Source: Streptomyces coryli (lineage in GTDB: Bacteria > Actinomycetota > Actinomycetes > Streptomycetales > Streptomycetaceae). From it: a stretch of DNA of 40,816 bases. The translations under genes and the position numbers were made by a program. This document shows, in pieces, positions 9,068 through 15,356 of the stretch. Location of the stretch: contig NZ_JAAKZV010000046.1 of assembly GCF_011044975.1 (NCBI RefSeq), positions 1-40,816 on the forward strand, written 5' to 3'. How positions within the stretch are numbered: the stretch's first letter is position 1; each line of letters starts with the position of its first letter. Below the pieces are notes generated by a model. It was not told the origin of the DNA. It saw only the letters and a program-made list of their open reading frames with translations, and did not search any database.

Positions 9068-9116
9068 TTGACCCGGGACCGCGGATATACATCGGATGAA
9101 TGTCAGGCCTCCGATG
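9068..9116 (+). promoter_or_regulatory. Putative promoter/operator of the sugar ABC operon
   Basis: TTGACC (9068-9073) could be a -35 box. The inverted repeat CATCGGA (9090-9096) and TCCGATG (9110-9116), 13 nt apart, lies just downstream, and CATCGGATG is itself palindromic. No convincing -10 is visible. The layout suggests a repressor site in front of the transporter. The regulator is unknown; the FadR-type gene at 15478-16149 is one candidate. Confidence 0.4.
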
Positions 9117-9185
9117 AATCCCCGGCCGTCGCAATCCGGCCGGTCCGGCGGAACACCCGACCACCAAGGGGAAGTGAGCCACCCG

Positions 9186-10229
9186 ATGAGAACCCTCCGA
9201 AGCACCGCCGCGGCGGGCTGCGCCGTGCTGCTGGCAGTGACGGCGCTGGCGGGCTGCAACCGCGGCAGCGACGACGGCAAGGGCGGCGGCGCGTCCGGCA
9301 AGGTCGGCATCGACATGCCGCGTACGGACAGCGACTTCTGGAACTCCTACCGGCAGTACATCGACAAGGGCGTCAAGGACGGCGTCGTCTCCGCGCTGCC
9401 CGTGACCAACTCCCAGAACGACATCGGCAAGCTGGTCGCCAACGTCCAGACCTTCACGGATCAGGGCGCGAAAGCTGTTGTCATGGCCCCGCAGGACACC
9501 GGCGCCATCGCCTCCACCCTCGACCGGCTCGCGGACAAGGACATCCCGGTCGTCAGCGTCGACACCCGCCCCGACAAGGGCGACGTCTACATGGTCGTAC
9601 GCGCCGACAACAAGGCGTACGGCACCAAGGCCTGCGAATACCTCGGCAAGCAGCTGAAGGGGAAGGGCAAGGTGGTCGAGTTCCAGGGCGACCTCGCTTC
9701 CATCAACGGGCGTGAGCGGTCGCAGGCGTTCAAGAGCTGCATGGACGACAAGTTCCCTGACATCAAGGTCTTCGAGCTGGCCACCGAGTGGAAGGGCGAT
9801 GTCGCCTCCGCCAAGCTGCAGAGCGTCCTCGCCAAGGAAAAGACCATCGACGGCATCTACATGCAGGCCGGTGGCGTCTATCTGCAGCCGACCCTCTCGC
9901 TGCTGAAGCAGAAGAAGCTGCTGAAGCCGGCGGGCGAGGACGGCCACATCACGATCGTGTCGAACGACGGCATCCCGCAGGAGTTCGACGCCATCAAGAA
10001 GGGCCAGATCGACGCCACGGTCTCGCAGCCGGCCGACCTCTACGCCAAGTACGCGCTCTTCTACGCCCAGCAGGCCCTCAAGGGCAAGAAGTTCAAGCCC
10101 GGCAAGACCGACCACGGCTCGACGATCGTGAAGATCCCGAACGGCCTCGAGGACCAGCTGCCCGCGCCGCTCGTCACCAAGGACAACGTCGACGACCCGA
10201 AGCTCTGGGCCAATCAGCTCGAGAAGTGA
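9186..10229 (+). CDS. Sugar ABC transporter substrate-binding lipoprotein
   Basis: This is a family-1/Peripla_BP_4 type binding lipoprotein, 347 residues from the ATG at 9186. The signal peptide MRTLRSTAAAGCAVLLAVTA is followed by the lipobox LAGC, so the mature protein would be tethered outside the membrane. Two Rossmann-like lobes follow, beginning VGIDMPRTDSDFWNSY, with AVVMAPQDTGAIASTLDRL and DIPVVSVDTRP typical of ribose/xylitol/rhizopine-type binders. An in-frame GTG at 9174 is an alternative start. AAGGGG at 9166-9171 is 14 nt from the ATG and 2 nt from the GTG, so neither spacing is ideal. The transporter ATPase follows after 14 nt. The sugar cannot be named. Confidence 0.9.
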   Translation: MRTLRSTAAAGCAVLLAVTALAGCNRGSDDGKGGGASGKVGIDMPRTDSDFWNSYRQYIDKGVKDGVVSALPVTNSQNDIGKLVANVQTFTDQGAKAVVMAPQDTGAIASTLDRLADKDIPVVSVDTRPDKGDVYMVVRADNKAYGTKACEYLGKQLKGKGKVVEFQGDLASINGRERSQAFKSCMDDKFPDIKVFELATEWKGDVASAKLQSVLAKEKTIDGIYMQAGGVYLQPTLSLLKQKKLLKPAGEDGHITIVSNDGIPQEFDAIKKGQIDATVSQPADLYAKYALFYAQQALKGKKFKPGKTDHGSTIVKIPNGLEDQLPAPLVTKDNVDDPKLWANQLEK

Positions 10230-10243
10230 CAGTTAGGCGGACC

Positions 10244-11788
10244 ATGCACGCAGCAGTACGGGCCGAAGGCGTCGTCAAACGCTTCGGCCCGACCACCGCA
10301 CTCGACGGCGTGGACCTGACCGTGCGCCCCGGCGAGGCCCACGCCCTCGTCGGCCGCAACGGCGCGGGAAAGTCCACGCTCGTGTCCGTACTGACGGGAA
10401 TGGCGCGACCTGATGCCGGGTCCGTCACCTTCGGCGGGGAGCCGGCACCTCCGTACGGGGACACTTCCGCCTGGCGCGCCAAGGCCGCCTGCGTCTACCA
10501 GAAGTCGATGATCGTGCCGGATCTGACCGTGGCCGAGAATCTGTATCTGGGGCGCTTCCCCGGTACGGGGCCCATCCGCTGGCGCGAGCTGCGCGCACGG
10601 GCGCGGGAGCTGCTCGCCGAGTACGGCGTGGACGTCGAGCCGGGGGAGCGGGCGAAGGATCTCGGCGTCGAGCAGCGGCAGTTCGTGGAGATCGCGCGGG
10701 CGCTGTCCTTCGGGGCGCGGCTGATCATCCTCGACGAGCCGACGGCGCGGCTGGACGCGGGCGGCATCGAGCGGCTCTTCGCGAAGCTGCGCGAACTGCA
10801 GGAGCAGGGGGTGGCGTTCCTGTTCATCTCGCATCACCTGCAGGAGGTCTACGAGCTCTGCGACACCGTCACCGTCTACCGCGACGCCCGGCACATCGTC
10901 ACCGCGCCGGTCGCCGAGCTGCCGAAGGCGGAGCTGGTGGCGGCGATGACGGGGGAGGGGGCGGTGGCCGACGGTGCCTCGGCGGCGCTCGTATCGCAGG
11001 CGGGCGAGCCGGTGGAGGAGCGGGAGCCGGTGCTGCGGACGGAGGGGCTCGCGCTGGCGGGCGCGTACGAGCCGGTGGACCTGGCGGTCAGGCCGGGCGA
11101 GGTGCTCGGCCTCGCGGGCGCGGCGGCGAGCGGCAACACGGCCATCGGCGAGACCCTCGTCGGCATGCGCGCGCCGGACGGCGGCCGGATCAGCGTGGGC
11201 GGGCGCGCGGTGCGCACCGGGAGCGTCCCGGACGCGCTGGAGGCCGGCATCGGTTACGTACCGGAGGACCGGCACCGGCAGGGGCTCGTGCTCACCCGGA
11301 GCGTGGCCGAGAACGCGACCCTGACGGTGGCCGACCAGCTCGGCCCGTACGGGACCGTACTCCCGTCCCGTACCCGGGAATTCGCGCAGGGAATGATCGA
11401 CTCGCTGGACATCAAGACGTCGGGCCCGGGACAGGAGGTCACCGGTCTGTCGGGCGGCAATCAGCAGAAGGTCGTGATCGCGCGGGCGCTGGCGCGGGAT
11501 CCGGGCGTGCTGGTGGCGATCCGGCCGACGGCGGGGGTGGACGTGAAGTCCAAGGACGCGCTGCTGGGGGTCGTACGGCGAGTGGCGGACGGAGGTGCCG
11601 CGGCCGTCATCGTCTCCGACGAACTGGACGACCTGCGGGTGTGCGACCGGGTGCTGGTGCTGTTCCACGGGCGGACGGTGGCGGAGTTCGGGAGCGGTTG
11701 GAGCGACCGGGAGCTGGTCGCGGCGATGGAAGGCTTTGTGCCCGGCGCCGGAGACGGCGTTGCGGCCGGAAAGACGGAGGAGTCATGA
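10244..11788 (+). CDS. Sugar ABC transporter ATP-binding protein (two ABC domains)
   Basis: The 514-residue protein has two tandem ABC domains, like RbsA/XylG. Domain 1 has Walker A GRNGAGKST (residues 37-45), a signature region LGVEQRQFVEIARAL and Walker B LIILDEPT with Asp164-Glu165. Domain 2 has a degenerate Walker A (LAGAAASGNTAIG, no Lys), a perfect signature LSGGNQQKVVIARAL and a divergent Walker B (VLVAIRPTAGVDV) lacking the Asp-Glu pair. ATP hydrolysis therefore probably rests on one composite site. The ATG at 10244 is preceded by AGGCGGA; a GTG at 10226 overlapping the previous stop is the alternative. It overlaps the permease gene by 4 nt (ATGA). Confidence 0.93.
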   Translation: MHAAVRAEGVVKRFGPTTALDGVDLTVRPGEAHALVGRNGAGKSTLVSVLTGMARPDAGSVTFGGEPAPPYGDTSAWRAKAACVYQKSMIVPDLTVAENLYLGRFPGTGPIRWRELRARARELLAEYGVDVEPGERAKDLGVEQRQFVEIARALSFGARLIILDEPTARLDAGGIERLFAKLRELQEQGVAFLFISHHLQEVYELCDTVTVYRDARHIVTAPVAELPKAELVAAMTGEGAVADGASAALVSQAGEPVEEREPVLRTEGLALAGAYEPVDLAVRPGEVLGLAGAAASGNTAIGETLVGMRAPDGGRISVGGRAVRTGSVPDALEAGIGYVPEDRHRQGLVLTRSVAENATLTVADQLGPYGTVLPSRTREFAQGMIDSLDIKTSGPGQEVTGLSGGNQQKVVIARALARDPGVLVAIRPTAGVDVKSKDALLGVVRRVADGGAAAVIVSDELDDLRVCDRVLVLFHGRTVAEFGSGWSDRELVAAMEGFVPGAGDGVAAGKTEES

Positions 11789-12828
11789 CCGATACGGCGG
11801 ATCGCGTGGAGAAGGAGACGCCGCCGACCGGGCCGCAACTGCGCGTCGCGGGAATGGAATTCGACCTGGACTTCGCGCGGTGGCGGGATTTCTCGCTGGT
11901 GCCGGTCATCTTCGTGCTCGGCGTCATCGGCTTCATCGTGTCACCGGCCTTTCTCACGTCCGACAACTTGATCGGTGTCGTGCAGCAGTCCACCGAGCTG
12001 GGCCTGCTGGTGCTCGGCGAGGCACTGATCCTGATCAGCGGCCGGATGGACCTGTCACTGGAGTCGACGATCGGCGTGGCGCCGGTCATCGCGCTGTGGC
12101 TGGTACTGCCGGCGAGCGGCCGCTTCACGGGACTCGAACTGCTGCCGTCGTGGATGTCGGTGCCGGTGTGCCTGGCGGTGGGCGGCTTGATCGGCCTGCT
12201 CAACGGCTTCCTGATATTGAAGCTACGGGTGAACGGCTTCATCGCGACGCTGGGCATGCTGACGATGCTGCGCGGCTTGCATGTCGGCATCTCGGAGGGC
12301 CAGTCGATCGTGACGGTCCCGGACTCGTTCGCGTATCTGGGACGGGCGGATTGGGTGGGGGTGCCGGCGGCTGTATGGCTGTGCCTGGGGCTCTTCGCGA
12401 TCGGTGGTGTGGTGCTGGGGTACTTCCGGCACGGGCGGGCGCTGTACGCGATCGGCGGCAATCCGGAGGCAGCACGGGCCGCGGGAATCCGGGTGGACCG
12501 GATCACGTGGGTGGTGCTGTGCGTGGGCGGCATGCTGGCCGCCTTTGCGGGTGTCCTGTACACGGGGCATTACGGGTCGGTCTCCGCGAATCAGGGAAAT
12601 GGGTGGATCTTCCAGGTCTTCGCGGCTGCGGTGATCGGCGGGATCAGCTTGCGGGGTGGTCGGGGGACGTTGTTCGGGGCGCTTACCGGCGTGCTGACGC
12701 TGCAGTTGGTCATCAACGTGATGACGCTGGGTGGGGTGCCTGCGCTGTGGACGCAGTTCATCAATGGGGCGATCATCATCGTCGCGCTGGTCATCTCGCG
12801 ATTCGCGAGCGGGGAGAAGCAGGACTGA
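11785..12828 (+). CDS. Sugar ABC transporter permease (BPD_transp_2/RbsC type)
   Basis: The 347-residue integral membrane protein is of the RbsC-like permease family. Hydrophobic segments start at LVPVIFVLGVIGFIV and continue through about eight to ten helices to IINGAIIIVALVIS-like sequence near the end. Family hallmarks are LILISGRMDLSLES, LINGFLILKLRVNGFIATLGM (split here by reading context) and the late GGISLRGGRGTLFGALTGV. It is coupled to the ATPase gene by an ATGA overlap and completes the lipoprotein-ATPase-permease operon. The substrate is probably a monosaccharide or polyol, as for the family. The large palindrome begins 25 nt after the stop codon. Confidence 0.92.
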   Translation: MTDTADRVEKETPPTGPQLRVAGMEFDLDFARWRDFSLVPVIFVLGVIGFIVSPAFLTSDNLIGVVQQSTELGLLVLGEALILISGRMDLSLESTIGVAPVIALWLVLPASGRFTGLELLPSWMSVPVCLAVGGLIGLLNGFLILKLRVNGFIATLGMLTMLRGLHVGISEGQSIVTVPDSFAYLGRADWVGVPAAVWLCLGLFAIGGVVLGYFRHGRALYAIGGNPEAARAAGIRVDRITWVVLCVGGMLAAFAGVLYTGHYGSVSANQGNGWIFQVFAAAVIGGISLRGGRGTLFGALTGVLTLQLVINVMTLGGVPALWTQFINGAIIIVALVISRFASGEKQD

Positions 12829-12853
12829 GGGCGGTGGACGGCGGGCGGCGGGC

Positions 12854-13149
<296 letters not shown>

Positions 13150-13194
13150 CCCGCCACCAGGCCAGCGGGTTGAGACCACAACGCGGTAGCGCAG

Positions 13195-14067
13195 CTAGGG
13201 ATTGGGCGCATCCCTGCATGACCTGGCGTCGATCGCTGCGTTAGTCGGCTTGAGGTGGTTCTGCCAGTCCGGCAATGTCTGAACAACCTTGGGGAGGTTC
13301 GCTTGGATGTCCGTGATCCATTCGGTGCCGTTCACGTACCGCTTCAGGTAATCACGTATCAGTTTGCAGCGCGCGCGGTCCTTCTTCGGCAATCCGATCC
13401 CATAATGCTGTGGAGCGCCGACCGTCAGTTTCGGCACGACTTTCAGCCCTTTCGAGGCGTACCGATCGGCGAACCCGTAAAGGAGTAGCTGGTCGGTGGA
13501 GAATGCGTCGACTTCATTCTTGGTAACTGCCGTTATGCAATCCGTCGCATCCTCCTTCTGTACCACTTCGACGTCAAGGCCCCTAAGCGGGGTGAGATTG
13601 GTGGTGTCGGCCCAAGCGCATATCCGTCGACCCTTGAGGTCATGGGCGGATCTAATGTTGGGGCTCTGTTTGCCAGTGAGGAATCCCTGGTATGTGGTTA
13701 TGTACGGTCCGGCGAAGTCTATCTTTTTCATTCGGTCAGCAGTGATCGAGAAGGCCGCGATCGCCAGATCGGCATCACTTTCTGTGAGCACCGTTACCCG
13801 ATCGCCTATGGGGATGTCGAGCGGATTCACTTTGGCGCCTAACTCTTCTCCGATGCGCTGCGATAACTGATGATCAAATCCGGACCGCTTGTAGCTGTTC
13901 GGCGGAACCCAGGCGATCCCAGGCAGGTTCTTTTGGGTTGCAACCGTCAGGCGCTCCTTTGTCTCGTCGGCCTCGTCTCCGCCGCAACTTACGATGATCA
14001 GGGCAATGGTCAAAGCCAGGATCATCGCTGTCGCCGCGAGCGAAAAGGGGCCGGGCCGATGTCTCAT
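13195..14067 (-). CDS. Orphan solute-binding lipoprotein, family 3
   Basis: The 290-residue protein resembles amino-acid-type (GluB/HisJ) extracellular binding proteins. A signal peptide with the hydrophobic stretch AATAMILALTIALIIVSC ends in a lipobox-like VSC. The SBP-3 domain follows, with GFDHQLSQRIGEELG, DLAIAAFSITADRMKKIDFA and GPYITTYQGFL. A transporter permease and ATPase are absent from its operon; the genes before it encode a membrane protein and a small helical protein. Two leucines (68 and 76) use TTA codons (13866-13864, 13842-13840), and other rare codons (ATA, CTA, CTT) occur, unlike the surrounding core genes. The ATG at 14067 has AAAGGGA 5 nt upstream; a GTG at 14070 is too close to that site. 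It could be a ligand sensor rather than a transport component. Confidence 0.88.
   Translation of the reverse strand: MRHRPGPFSLAATAMILALTIALIIVSCGGDEADETKERLTVATQKNLPGIAWVPPNSYKRSGFDHQLSQRIGEELGAKVNPLDIPIGDRVTVLTESDADLAIAAFSITADRMKKIDFAGPYITTYQGFLTGKQSPNIRSAHDLKGRRICAWADTTNLTPLRGLDVEVVQKEDATDCITAVTKNEVDAFSTDQLLLYGFADRYASKGLKVVPKLTVGAPQHYGIGLPKKDRARCKLIRDYLKRYVNGTEWITDIQANLPKVVQTLPDWQNHLKPTNAAIDARSCRDAPNP
13840..13866 (-). other. Two TTA leucine codons (bldA-type control)
   Basis: In the frame of the solute-binding protein, codons 68 (13866-13864) and 76 (13842-13840) are TTA. In Streptomyces TTA is read only by the bldA tRNA, so translation would be limited to later developmental stages. This consequence is established knowledge; it is not shown for this gene. 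Confidence 0.85.
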
Positions 14068-14085
14068 CACAATCCCTTTCGCCTC

Positions 14086-14904
14086 TCAGTCATGCAGTAC
14101 GGCTTTCAGCACGGACACTTCCATGTGACACCCGAGGTCCGTATGCACGGTGATCTGCGCGCGGACCTTGGTTGAACCGCCGAGGCGCAGGTCTACATGT
14201 TCACCGGAATCGACTCGCTCCGCTTGAGCCTTGCCATTTCCTCCCAGAAGTGCAACGCCCAATTGGGTTTCAGGTACGCAGAATTGCGACCCTGACCAGT
14301 CGCCTGGCGCATCCGCGGCCCGTAGGGTCAGCCGGAGTCGGTGGCGATTAGGTTGGCCTTCCAGGGTTACCGTCAGCGTGTCGCCGTTCTGCACGACCTT
14401 CGGGGAAATGTGGGTCCGGCCCGTGACATCCACTTCGCCTGTGTCCCGCACGAGCTCAGTCCAGATCACTCCGGCGATGAGTAGTGGGAAGGGGAGAGCG
14501 AAGGCGAAACTGCGAAATGTCTTGAATGCTTTGCCTGCTCGTAACCCAGTGGCCGGGGCGTCATTCTCGCTGCTCTGCCGAACCCAGATAAGTTGCCAGG
14601 TGGCGGCGGCAAATGAGACCACCAGTAAGGTGATTGCGCCGGCCAGGTCAAGCATGGGGACATCGGGTTTATTCACTCCGACGTAAACGGCTGCTGCGGC
14701 AGCCAGGATTACCGGTATGGAGCTGCCGACCCTTGCCCACTGCTCCGCTGTGGGCAAGGGTAATTCGACGTGCCACCAGCTATTTGTGACCCGTACGGAA
14801 GGCGTCTCCCCGACTGCGACTGCTCCGGCGCCCAACGCGTGGACACGTGCCAGAAGCCGTCGACCACGGCTCGACCCATCAGGCCTCGGGGCTGCATCGT
14901 TCAC
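14086..14904 (-). CDS. Three-pass membrane protein with N-terminal GAVAVG motif
   Basis: I do not recognise the family of this 272-residue protein. Residues 1-55 are cytoplasmic-type, with the basic stretch SSRGRRLLAR, then GAGAVAVGETPSVRVTN (25-41) and an aromatic NSWWHVELPL. Probable membrane helices lie at about 60-77, 84-107 and 132-151. The C-terminal 120 residues look beta-rich and contain just two Cys (209, 259), fitting an exported, disulfide-bonded domain. Positive-inside reasoning puts the N-terminus inside and the C-terminus outside. The GTG at 14904 overlaps the upstream stop as GTGA, indicating coupling. Leu93 is a TTA codon (14628-14626), a mark of bldA dependence. The solute-binding lipoprotein gene follows after 18 nt. 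Confidence 0.8.
   Translation of the reverse strand: MNDAAPRPDGSSRGRRLLARVHALGAGAVAVGETPSVRVTNSWWHVELPLPTAEQWARVGSSIPVILAAAAAVYVGVNKPDVPMLDLAGAITLLVVSFAAATWQLIWVRQSSENDAPATGLRAGKAFKTFRSFAFALPFPLLIAGVIWTELVRDTGEVDVTGRTHISPKVVQNGDTLTVTLEGQPNRHRLRLTLRAADAPGDWSGSQFCVPETQLGVALLGGNGKAQAERVDSGEHVDLRLGGSTKVRAQITVHTDLGCHMEVSVLKAVLHD
14626..14628 (-). other. TTA leucine codon (bldA-type control)
   Basis: Codon 93 of the membrane protein gene is TTA, checked in frame from the GTG at 14904. It is the third TTA codon of the operon. Confidence 0.88.
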
Positions 14905-15356
14905 TGCTCATCGTCCGAATGCGAGGTGCCGTGGCGCTCACTTTTCGACGGCCAGTTGTAGACATTTGCTTGCCCGGCAACGCCGATGGCCACTGCGCCG
15001 GGCCCCTCCGCACTGACCTCACCGCCCGACATGCTGGGACCATGGCCCCTGCGGTCACCGCTGTCCGTGCGCTCGATCTCACGTCGTAGCGCCTCAGCAG
15101 TCAGGTCGCCTGCCAGTAGCCAGCTGCAGATCGCCTCCGCCAGGGCGCGACGCGCTTCATCGGACAGATTGCGGATCTGCTCGGCGGCATCCCGGTCGCG
15201 TCGCCGGCCGCTGGAGCCGAGCCGGTCCGAGAGATAGGCCTCACCGGCGTTGACCACATGTTCGGCGATTCGCGTCTGGGCCACCGTGGTTACGGTGGCT
15301 GCACCCGCAGCCAGATACGGAACGATCTCGTTCGCAACAGCCAACAGCTCGGACAT
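14901..15356 (-). CDS. Small helical protein with C-terminal GAVAIG motif
   Basis: This 151-residue protein is first in the operon and of unrecognised family. Residues 1-98 are predicted helical: a hydrophobic start (LLAVANEIVPYLAAGAATV), then a charged stretch DRDAAEQIRNLSDEARRALA. A Gly/Ser linker follows, then GPGAVAIGVAGQANVYNW (118-135) and a polar tail. The motif aligns without gaps to residues 25-41 of the membrane protein encoded next. No signal peptide is convincing, so it is likely cytoplasmic or membrane-associated. The ATG at 15356 has GGAG 8 nt upstream; the open frame runs further upstream into the FadR gene, but that part is rejected. It overlaps the membrane-protein gene by 4 nt. 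No TTA codon is present here. Confidence 0.75.
   Translation of the reverse strand: MSELLAVANEIVPYLAAGAATVTTVAQTRIAEHVVNAGEAYLSDRLGSSGRRRDRDAAEQIRNLSDEARRALAEAICSWLLAGDLTAEALRREIERTDSGDRRGHGPSMSGGEVSAEGPGAVAIGVAGQANVYNWPSKSERHGTSHSDDEQ

Follow-up and report, generated by a model that had tools for sequence, protein, structure and literature searches.

Three genes on the minus strand of a contig of Streptomyces coryli (NZ_JAAKZV010000046.1, assembly GCF_011044975.1) probably encode a ligand-controlled membrane signalling complex, in which the signal would be relayed in the manner of the Bell/BASS systems, a solute-binding lipoprotein and a multi-pass receptor taking the place of the NLR-type receptor. 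The genes, here called A, B and C, occupy positions 13195 to 15356 of the window, by which we mean the whole stretch of 40,816 nucleotides that was analysed. Bell/BASS/NLR amyloid signalosomes have been described in multicellular bacteria (PMC7889193, PMC8086366, PMC9815663; these and all other papers are cited here from excerpts). Here Bell, which carries its motif at the C-terminus, and the NLR protein, which carries its own at the N-terminus, are the products of adjacent or overlapping genes in filamentous bacteria (PMC7889193). The A-B-C operon displays a matched motif pair of this amyloid-signalling type, through which B could speak to A. The evidence from the window itself is modest and leans on that from its relatives.

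Matched motifs in genes A and B

Gene A (15356-14901, minus strand) encodes a small protein of 151 amino acids, a candidate for a Bell-like effector with an N-terminal hydrophobic, helical part and a C-terminal motif. Gene B (14904-14086, minus strand) encodes a membrane protein of 272 amino acids, for which an inside N-terminus, three transmembrane (TM) segments and an outside C-terminal domain are predicted. A short Gly-rich motif is common to A, at its C-terminus, and to B, at its N-terminus, which is predicted to be cytoplasmic. In the window, the A-side motif VSAEGPGAVAIGVAGQANVYN (14955..15017, minus strand; residues 114-134 of A) pairs with the B-side motif VHALGAGAVAVGETPSVRVTN (14782..14844, minus strand; residues 21-41 of B, ahead of TM1). 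The pair scores at z 3.2, being matched by 2 of 500 shuffles, and at z 3.4 upon rescoring.

Comparison across related operons displays this pairing more broadly. In a set of 23 operons the mean local alignment score was 52.3 for cognate versus 33.2 for mismatched pairs, and control comparisons yielded a mean z of -0.26 (C-terminus of A with the outer domain of B, 23 operons), -0.43 (N-terminal part of A with the N-terminus of B, 23 operons) and 0.09 (C-terminus of A with C, n=22). The final scoring comprises 39 distinct A-B operons; it uses a B N-terminus of fixed length in place of a hydropathy cut and a corrected reading frame for the A gene of locus L069. Locus L120 is omitted from the 39 pairs, its A gene reading as truncated, and locus L067, which was recognised later and is counted among the 41 A-bearing loci described below, was scored on its own (z 3.2; 13 of 1000 shuffles did as well). 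The cognate mean of the 39 pairs is 54.4 versus 32.1 for mismatched pairs, a score reached by none of 20,000 permutations (best permutation 42.3), and z is at least 3 in 33 of the 39. With one operon drawn per cluster (10 clusters at 50% identity of the B body, 200 draws), p had a median of 0.0005 and a maximum of 0.001. Similarity among A motifs also follows similarity among B motifs once the likeness of the two protein bodies is regressed out (partial r 0.36, equalled by 0 of 2000 permutations).

That this likeness is a functionless by-product of local duplication, or of the composition of Gly/Ala-rich ends of overlapping genes, seems hardly credible. The pairing is reproduced neither by shuffles that preserve composition nor by mismatched pairs or control segments, and it persists across 10 clusters of B proteins that share less than 50% identity, as well as where the upstream partner is non-homologous. 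The segments are, admittedly, short and rich in Gly, and the same codon encodes 308 of 458 identical motif residues (0.67, compared to 0.57 expected from codon usage), such that some copying at the level of DNA is possible. However, nucleotide identity over the aligned motifs is just 0.63. Together, codon reuse and nucleotide identity indicate a likeness maintained mainly in the protein sequence, to which copying of DNA could have contributed somewhat; an origin by DNA duplication does not account for it.

The type of motif varies by lineage and shifts in A and B together. The pair at locus L070 is GDNNIVIGSVGTFTQ (A) and GDNNNIIGNAGTFNQ (B), that at L130 is SYGDRTINGGTFGDKNTFNFG (A) and SYGDRTINGGTFGDRSTFNFG (B), and at L068 and L069 A motifs resembling GDHNTVIGSVGTFNQ are found with B motifs of the HNTVVG- and STVIG-type. 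When compared with A proteins of other clusters, B proteins that have an A partner reach a mean maximal z of 3.86, with 67% above 2.5 (n=39); for B proteins without a detected A the likeness to A motifs amounts to a mean maximal z of 1.35, with 20% above 2.5 (n=30). At three of these 30 A-less loci, a different small gene upstream ends in a motif that matches B (L132, z 4.1; L133, z 9.1; L090, z 6.5). The upstream protein of L132 is Bell-like (E 2.3e-7). The partners at L133 and L090 are not recognisably so, and are possibly other types of effectors plugged in via the motif.

Neither A nor B displays a convincing match in Pfam, NCBIfam, PADLOC or among solved structures. A profile of A matches 34 of 199 genomes of the genus (E<=0.01), from which 20 regions were fetched, with matches in the genomes G012, G070, G076, G084 and G166 lying outside this set. 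The fetched regions divide into nine with an NLR-type neighbour, four A-B-C operons, one lone A gene (L086) and six others (L077, L081-L085). In each of the nine, the A homologue overlaps a large STAND/NLR-type gene by 4 nucleotides, and the motif at the N-terminus of the large protein matches that of the small one (z 3.3 to 9.3). Six of the nine large neighbours have Pfam matches to NB-ARC, nSTAND or AAA_16 at E<=1e-5 (L071 and L073 being below the Pfam cut-off), and the other three (L074, L076, L078) carry TPR arrays (Pfam) and, by eye, a P-loop motif. The Bell effector domain is represented here by a profile of the N-domains of these nine NLR-linked small proteins, rather than by a published Bell profile; it finds 34 of the 39 A proteins at E<=1e-3, whereas the best of 400 shuffles reaches 0.13. 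A is a homologue of these NLR-linked, Bell-like proteins. Ten A proteins compared with Pfam had no RHIM among the families listed, and one of them matched HET-s_218-289 at E 0.12. Bell itself has been proposed to act as a membrane-targeting death domain, for which direct proof is stated to be absent (PMC7889193). The lone A gene (L086:5881-6459) is a second copy in the genome of locus L025 (G176); its C-terminal motif is near-identical, and no B gene adjoins it.

Operon layout and conservation

An earlier, sequence-only reading of this DNA had described three tightly linked genes for a small protein, a three-pass membrane protein and a solute-binding lipoprotein, a description that is confirmed here. 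Genes A and B overlap by 4 nucleotides (GTGA), and 18 nucleotides separate the stop codon of B from the in-frame ATG of gene C at 14067; an alternative start of C, a GTG at 14070, lies one codon earlier. Gene C (14067-13195, minus strand) encodes a solute-binding lipoprotein of family 3 (amino-acid type). A simple hydropathy scan yields one hydrophobic stretch in A (residues 4-22), three in B (residues 59-77, 82-100 and 134-152, followed by 120 amino acids) and a single N-terminal, signal-like stretch in C, after which a lipobox-like IVSC is seen by eye. The C-terminal domain of B (14089..14448, minus strand; residues 153-272) is predicted by hydropathy to lie outside. It contains the cysteines C209 and C259, the latter being invariant and the former nearly invariant in 19 aligned B proteins. 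Among 22 A-paired B proteins with exactly three segments, K+R amounts to 3.82 in the inner loop versus 1.00 in the outer one. B has no NTPase match in Pfam, and no NB-ARC, NACHT or STAND receptor domain was seen in this comparison.

It is very unlikely that C and B form a transporter that depends on a binding protein, or an accessory of such a transporter, with A as a regulator or chaperone. C does belong to a family of ABC-importer binding proteins, and a separate ABC system is encoded elsewhere in the window (9096-12828, plus strand). However, this system has the opposite orientation and, by eye, a binding protein, an ATPase and a permease of its own. The A-B-C operon, unlike an ABC importer, has neither ATPase nor permease beside its binding protein, as the sequence-only reading had noted and as the list of open reading frames (ORFs), Pfam and NCBIfam confirm. 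A and B are without a match among the transporter families of Pfam, NCBIfam and PADLOC, and a role in transport would leave both the pairing of the A and B motifs and the NLR-linked homologues of A unexplained.

Profiles of A and B from which the window had been left out were run against 456 window ORFs. They recover A of the window at E 6e-26 and its B at E 2.8e-45, and no other window ORF has E < 0.1; as the sole matches, A and B are conserved units and not chance ORFs. A relative operon with all three genes is present in Streptomyces spongiae (locus L001). B profiles match 38 of 392 genomes of the genus of S. spongiae (E<=0.001), 42 of 394 genomes of the family (E<=1e-5) and 11 of 394 genomes of the class (E<=0.001), in samples that overlap, such that these percentages are not independent. 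Weak matches of the genus sample in G137 and G247 lie outside the fetched set. Loci L093-L096, weak matches of the class sample, and the refetched copies L105 and L106 were excluded as chance matches (18-26 bits, without C), and L107 is without B. Removal of duplicates led to 72 distinct B genes.

C is found downstream of B on the same strand in 71 of these 72 loci, the exception (L034) being a short locus of 2 kb, and A is detected upstream of B in 41. The A/B junction was measured in 35 operons and consists of a 4-nucleotide overlap in 32, a 17-nucleotide overlap in two and a 2-nucleotide gap in one. Because A is undetected at 31 of the 72 loci, B-C is the core unit and A a frequent partner. 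The sequence-only reading, which treated the three genes as one unit, is borne out as to the co-occurrence of the families and needs revision as to the core. It had staked its proposal on the three families occurring together elsewhere and on A and B not being known transporter subunits; since the families do co-occur, and no match of A or B to a transporter family was obtained, it survives on both counts. A tblastn search for B on plasmids and phages gave no match at 1e-5, and hence no sign of mobility there.

An Rfam search returned no match to an RNA family and a scan for promoter patterns no promoter-like site, and a scan for terminator patterns returned one terminator-like site, inside C, versus 1.4 expected. 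Just past the 3' end of C (12851-13152) lies an inverted repeat of 96 nucleotides with arms 84% complementary, the 110-nucleotide spacer of which holds a (CCTG)9.5 run.

Gene C and known systems

Family-3 solute-binding proteins (SBPs) usually bind amino acids through an R and a D. Window C matches SBP_bac_3 (PF00497) at E 1.9e-16, and its best solved relatives are the mycobacterial GlnH structures 6h1u, 6h20 and 6h2t, on the R and D of which its residues R113 and D193 align. Among 69 aligned C proteins, those paired with A have R113 in 38 of 39 cases and D193 in all 39, and the others have them in 27 and 28 of 30, respectively. The alignment also displays four near-invariant cysteines; for the two ligand residues it supersedes a crude pattern count in C that covered the lipobox as well (50, 61 and 40 of 70).

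The layout had been put forward as possibly undescribed, which does not stand in view of two precedents, namely GlnH-GlnX-PknG (PMC6069109, PMC9769921) and the Bell/BASS/NLR motif relay (PMC7889193). In the former, known from mycobacteria and corynebacteria, an SBP lipoprotein and a membrane protein serve as a sensor (PMC6069109, PMC9769921). A-B-C resembles this system in having a gene for a family-3 SBP lipoprotein beside that of a membrane protein, with a presumed inward signal in place of transport. It differs in the topology and domains of B, GlnX having four TM segments and two periplasmic domains (PMC9769921), and in its cytoplasmic partner, which is a small motif protein: the operon has no PknG kinase, and A has no kinase match.

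The same wiring might serve a regulatory output, A-B-C being a nutrient sensor akin to GlnH-GlnX-PknG, with A as an adaptor to metabolism or development and the motif an ordinary homotypic segment of non-amyloid nature. The relation of C to GlnH, the system of which senses Asp/Glu via GlnX (PMC6069109, PMC9769921), and the retention of R113 and D193 in nearly all A-paired C proteins would fit such a sensor. We nevertheless consider it unlikely, given that the window operon lacks a kinase, that B has three TM segments and that 19 B proteins compared with Pfam display no match to the helical CHASE3 or 4HB domains, in contrast to the four segments and two periplasmic domains of GlnX (PMC9769921), and that A has homologues whose genes overlap those of STAND/NLR-type proteins. 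Regarding the output alone, regulation instead of death could apply to a Bell/BASS-type relay as well. Beside loci L009, L010 and L013 lies a gene that, by eye, resembles the one for the E1 component of 2-oxoglutarate dehydrogenase, which is the enzyme under control of the GlnH-GlnX-PknG pathway; this may be simple conservation of the locus.

The Bell/BASS systems share with A-B-C a small helical protein with a C-terminal motif, an overlapping downstream gene the product of which begins with a matching motif, a diversity of motif types, and the homology of A to NLR-linked small proteins. The receptor differs: in place of an NB-ARC/STAND protein, A-B-C has B, which spans the membrane several times, bears an outer domain and is accompanied by an adjoining SBP lipoprotein (PMC7889193, PMC8086366, PMC9815663). 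A-B-C would work like a Bell/BASS signalosome, yet one defining feature, the NLR receptor, is absent.

A third comparison concerns the EACC1-caspase system, a two-gene conflict system for which an outer periplasmic binding protein (PBP) domain has been noted before (PMC7159879). On a plasmid of Streptomyces sp. NBC_00257, a gene at L149:1532-4633 encodes a protein of 1033 residues in which a caspase domain and nSTAND1 are followed by what looks by eye like a TM segment and by a related SBP domain. The latter is 36% identical to window C across residues 90-287 of C; an EACC1 gene lies beside it at L149:1065-1526 (example P0007). This suggests that related binding domains serve as the outer parts of conflict receptors. 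The likeness to A-B-C consists in a related SBP domain outside the membrane in a likely conflict or cell-death receptor, and the difference in a single caspase-nSTAND1-TM-SBP fusion with EACC1, without A or B (PMC7159879). A plasmid of S. anulatus (L150:2792-4687) carries a related SBP behind a different cytoplasmic part.

Proposed mechanism and its meaning

Several results weigh against a Bell/BASS-type relay. The motif pair of the window is modest by itself (z 3.2-3.4), and window A is a weak match to the N-domain profile of the NLR-linked proteins (E 0.005, compared to 0.13 for the best of 400 shuffles). Six of the 39 pairs remain below z 3, for example L007, the S. spongiae copy (2.2), and L116 (0.8), and the first scoring, based on the hydropathy-cut N-terminus of B and a misframed A at L069, gave z of at least 3 in only 30 of 40 pairs. 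A motif profile derived from the A-B operons picks up the NLR-linked motifs weakly (best E 0.047), while scoring unrelated ORFs at E 0.33 and above. The 31 B loci without a detected A count here as well. The N-termini of B at L030 and L121 look motif-like by eye, with no partner gene seen upstream, and an alternative upstream partner proposed for L098 is not supported (z 0.6). Finally, of 40 A-paired B proteins, only 22 have exactly three TM segments by hydropathy, the others having four (12 proteins), two (five proteins) or five (one protein).

For the ligand, the clustering of B, amyloid templating and fold, and the output, we infer the following course of events. C, as a lipoprotein outside the membrane, would bind a small molecule, which is expected to be amino-acid-like from the family and the conserved R113 and D193. 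Ligand-bound C would alter the state of B through the outer domain of the latter, probably by clustering B. Inside the cell, clustering would draw the motifs at the B N-termini together to form a beta- or amyloid-like seed, which would recruit A through the matching motif at its C-terminus (templating). The clustered helical domain of A would then act as effector, most likely at the membrane, where it would cause damage or kill the cell, in line with what has been proposed for Bell. A path from the binding protein through B to A had already been suggested by the sequence-only reading; comparative evidence points the same way, and the matched motif pair that links B to A had been missed. More specifically, A-B-C might be a transmembrane, amyloid-gated receptor for death or membrane attack, in which an amino-acid-like ligand acts on the lipoprotein, B nucleates amyloid at the inner face and a Bell effector fires. 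This stronger version is tentative, and we regard it as somewhat doubtful.

Among the matches listed in a search of the open-access literature, no paper links Bell or BASS to a receptor of the solute-binding or membrane type; the founding paper on Bell/BASS/NLR amyloid signalosomes, reportedly Dyrka et al. 2020, was outside the scope of that search. The triggers of bacterial amyloid signalosomes are not known according to the excerpted PMC7889193, which calls their biology open. In A-B-C, the candidate sensor is a separate lipoprotein, the ligands of which can be found by routine binding assays. Because the sensor belongs to such a routinely assayable family of SBPs, the ligand of amyloid-type signalling in bacteria becomes directly testable.

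If true, the amyloid-gated reading would describe a bacterial counterpart of ligand-gated death receptors, with the NLR of Bell/BASS systems swapped for a surface sensor and with effectors that are exchangeable through the motif. The proposed relay itself would couple amyloid-type motifs to surface receptors, and would give actinobacterial family-3 binding proteins a second non-transport role beside that of GlnH.

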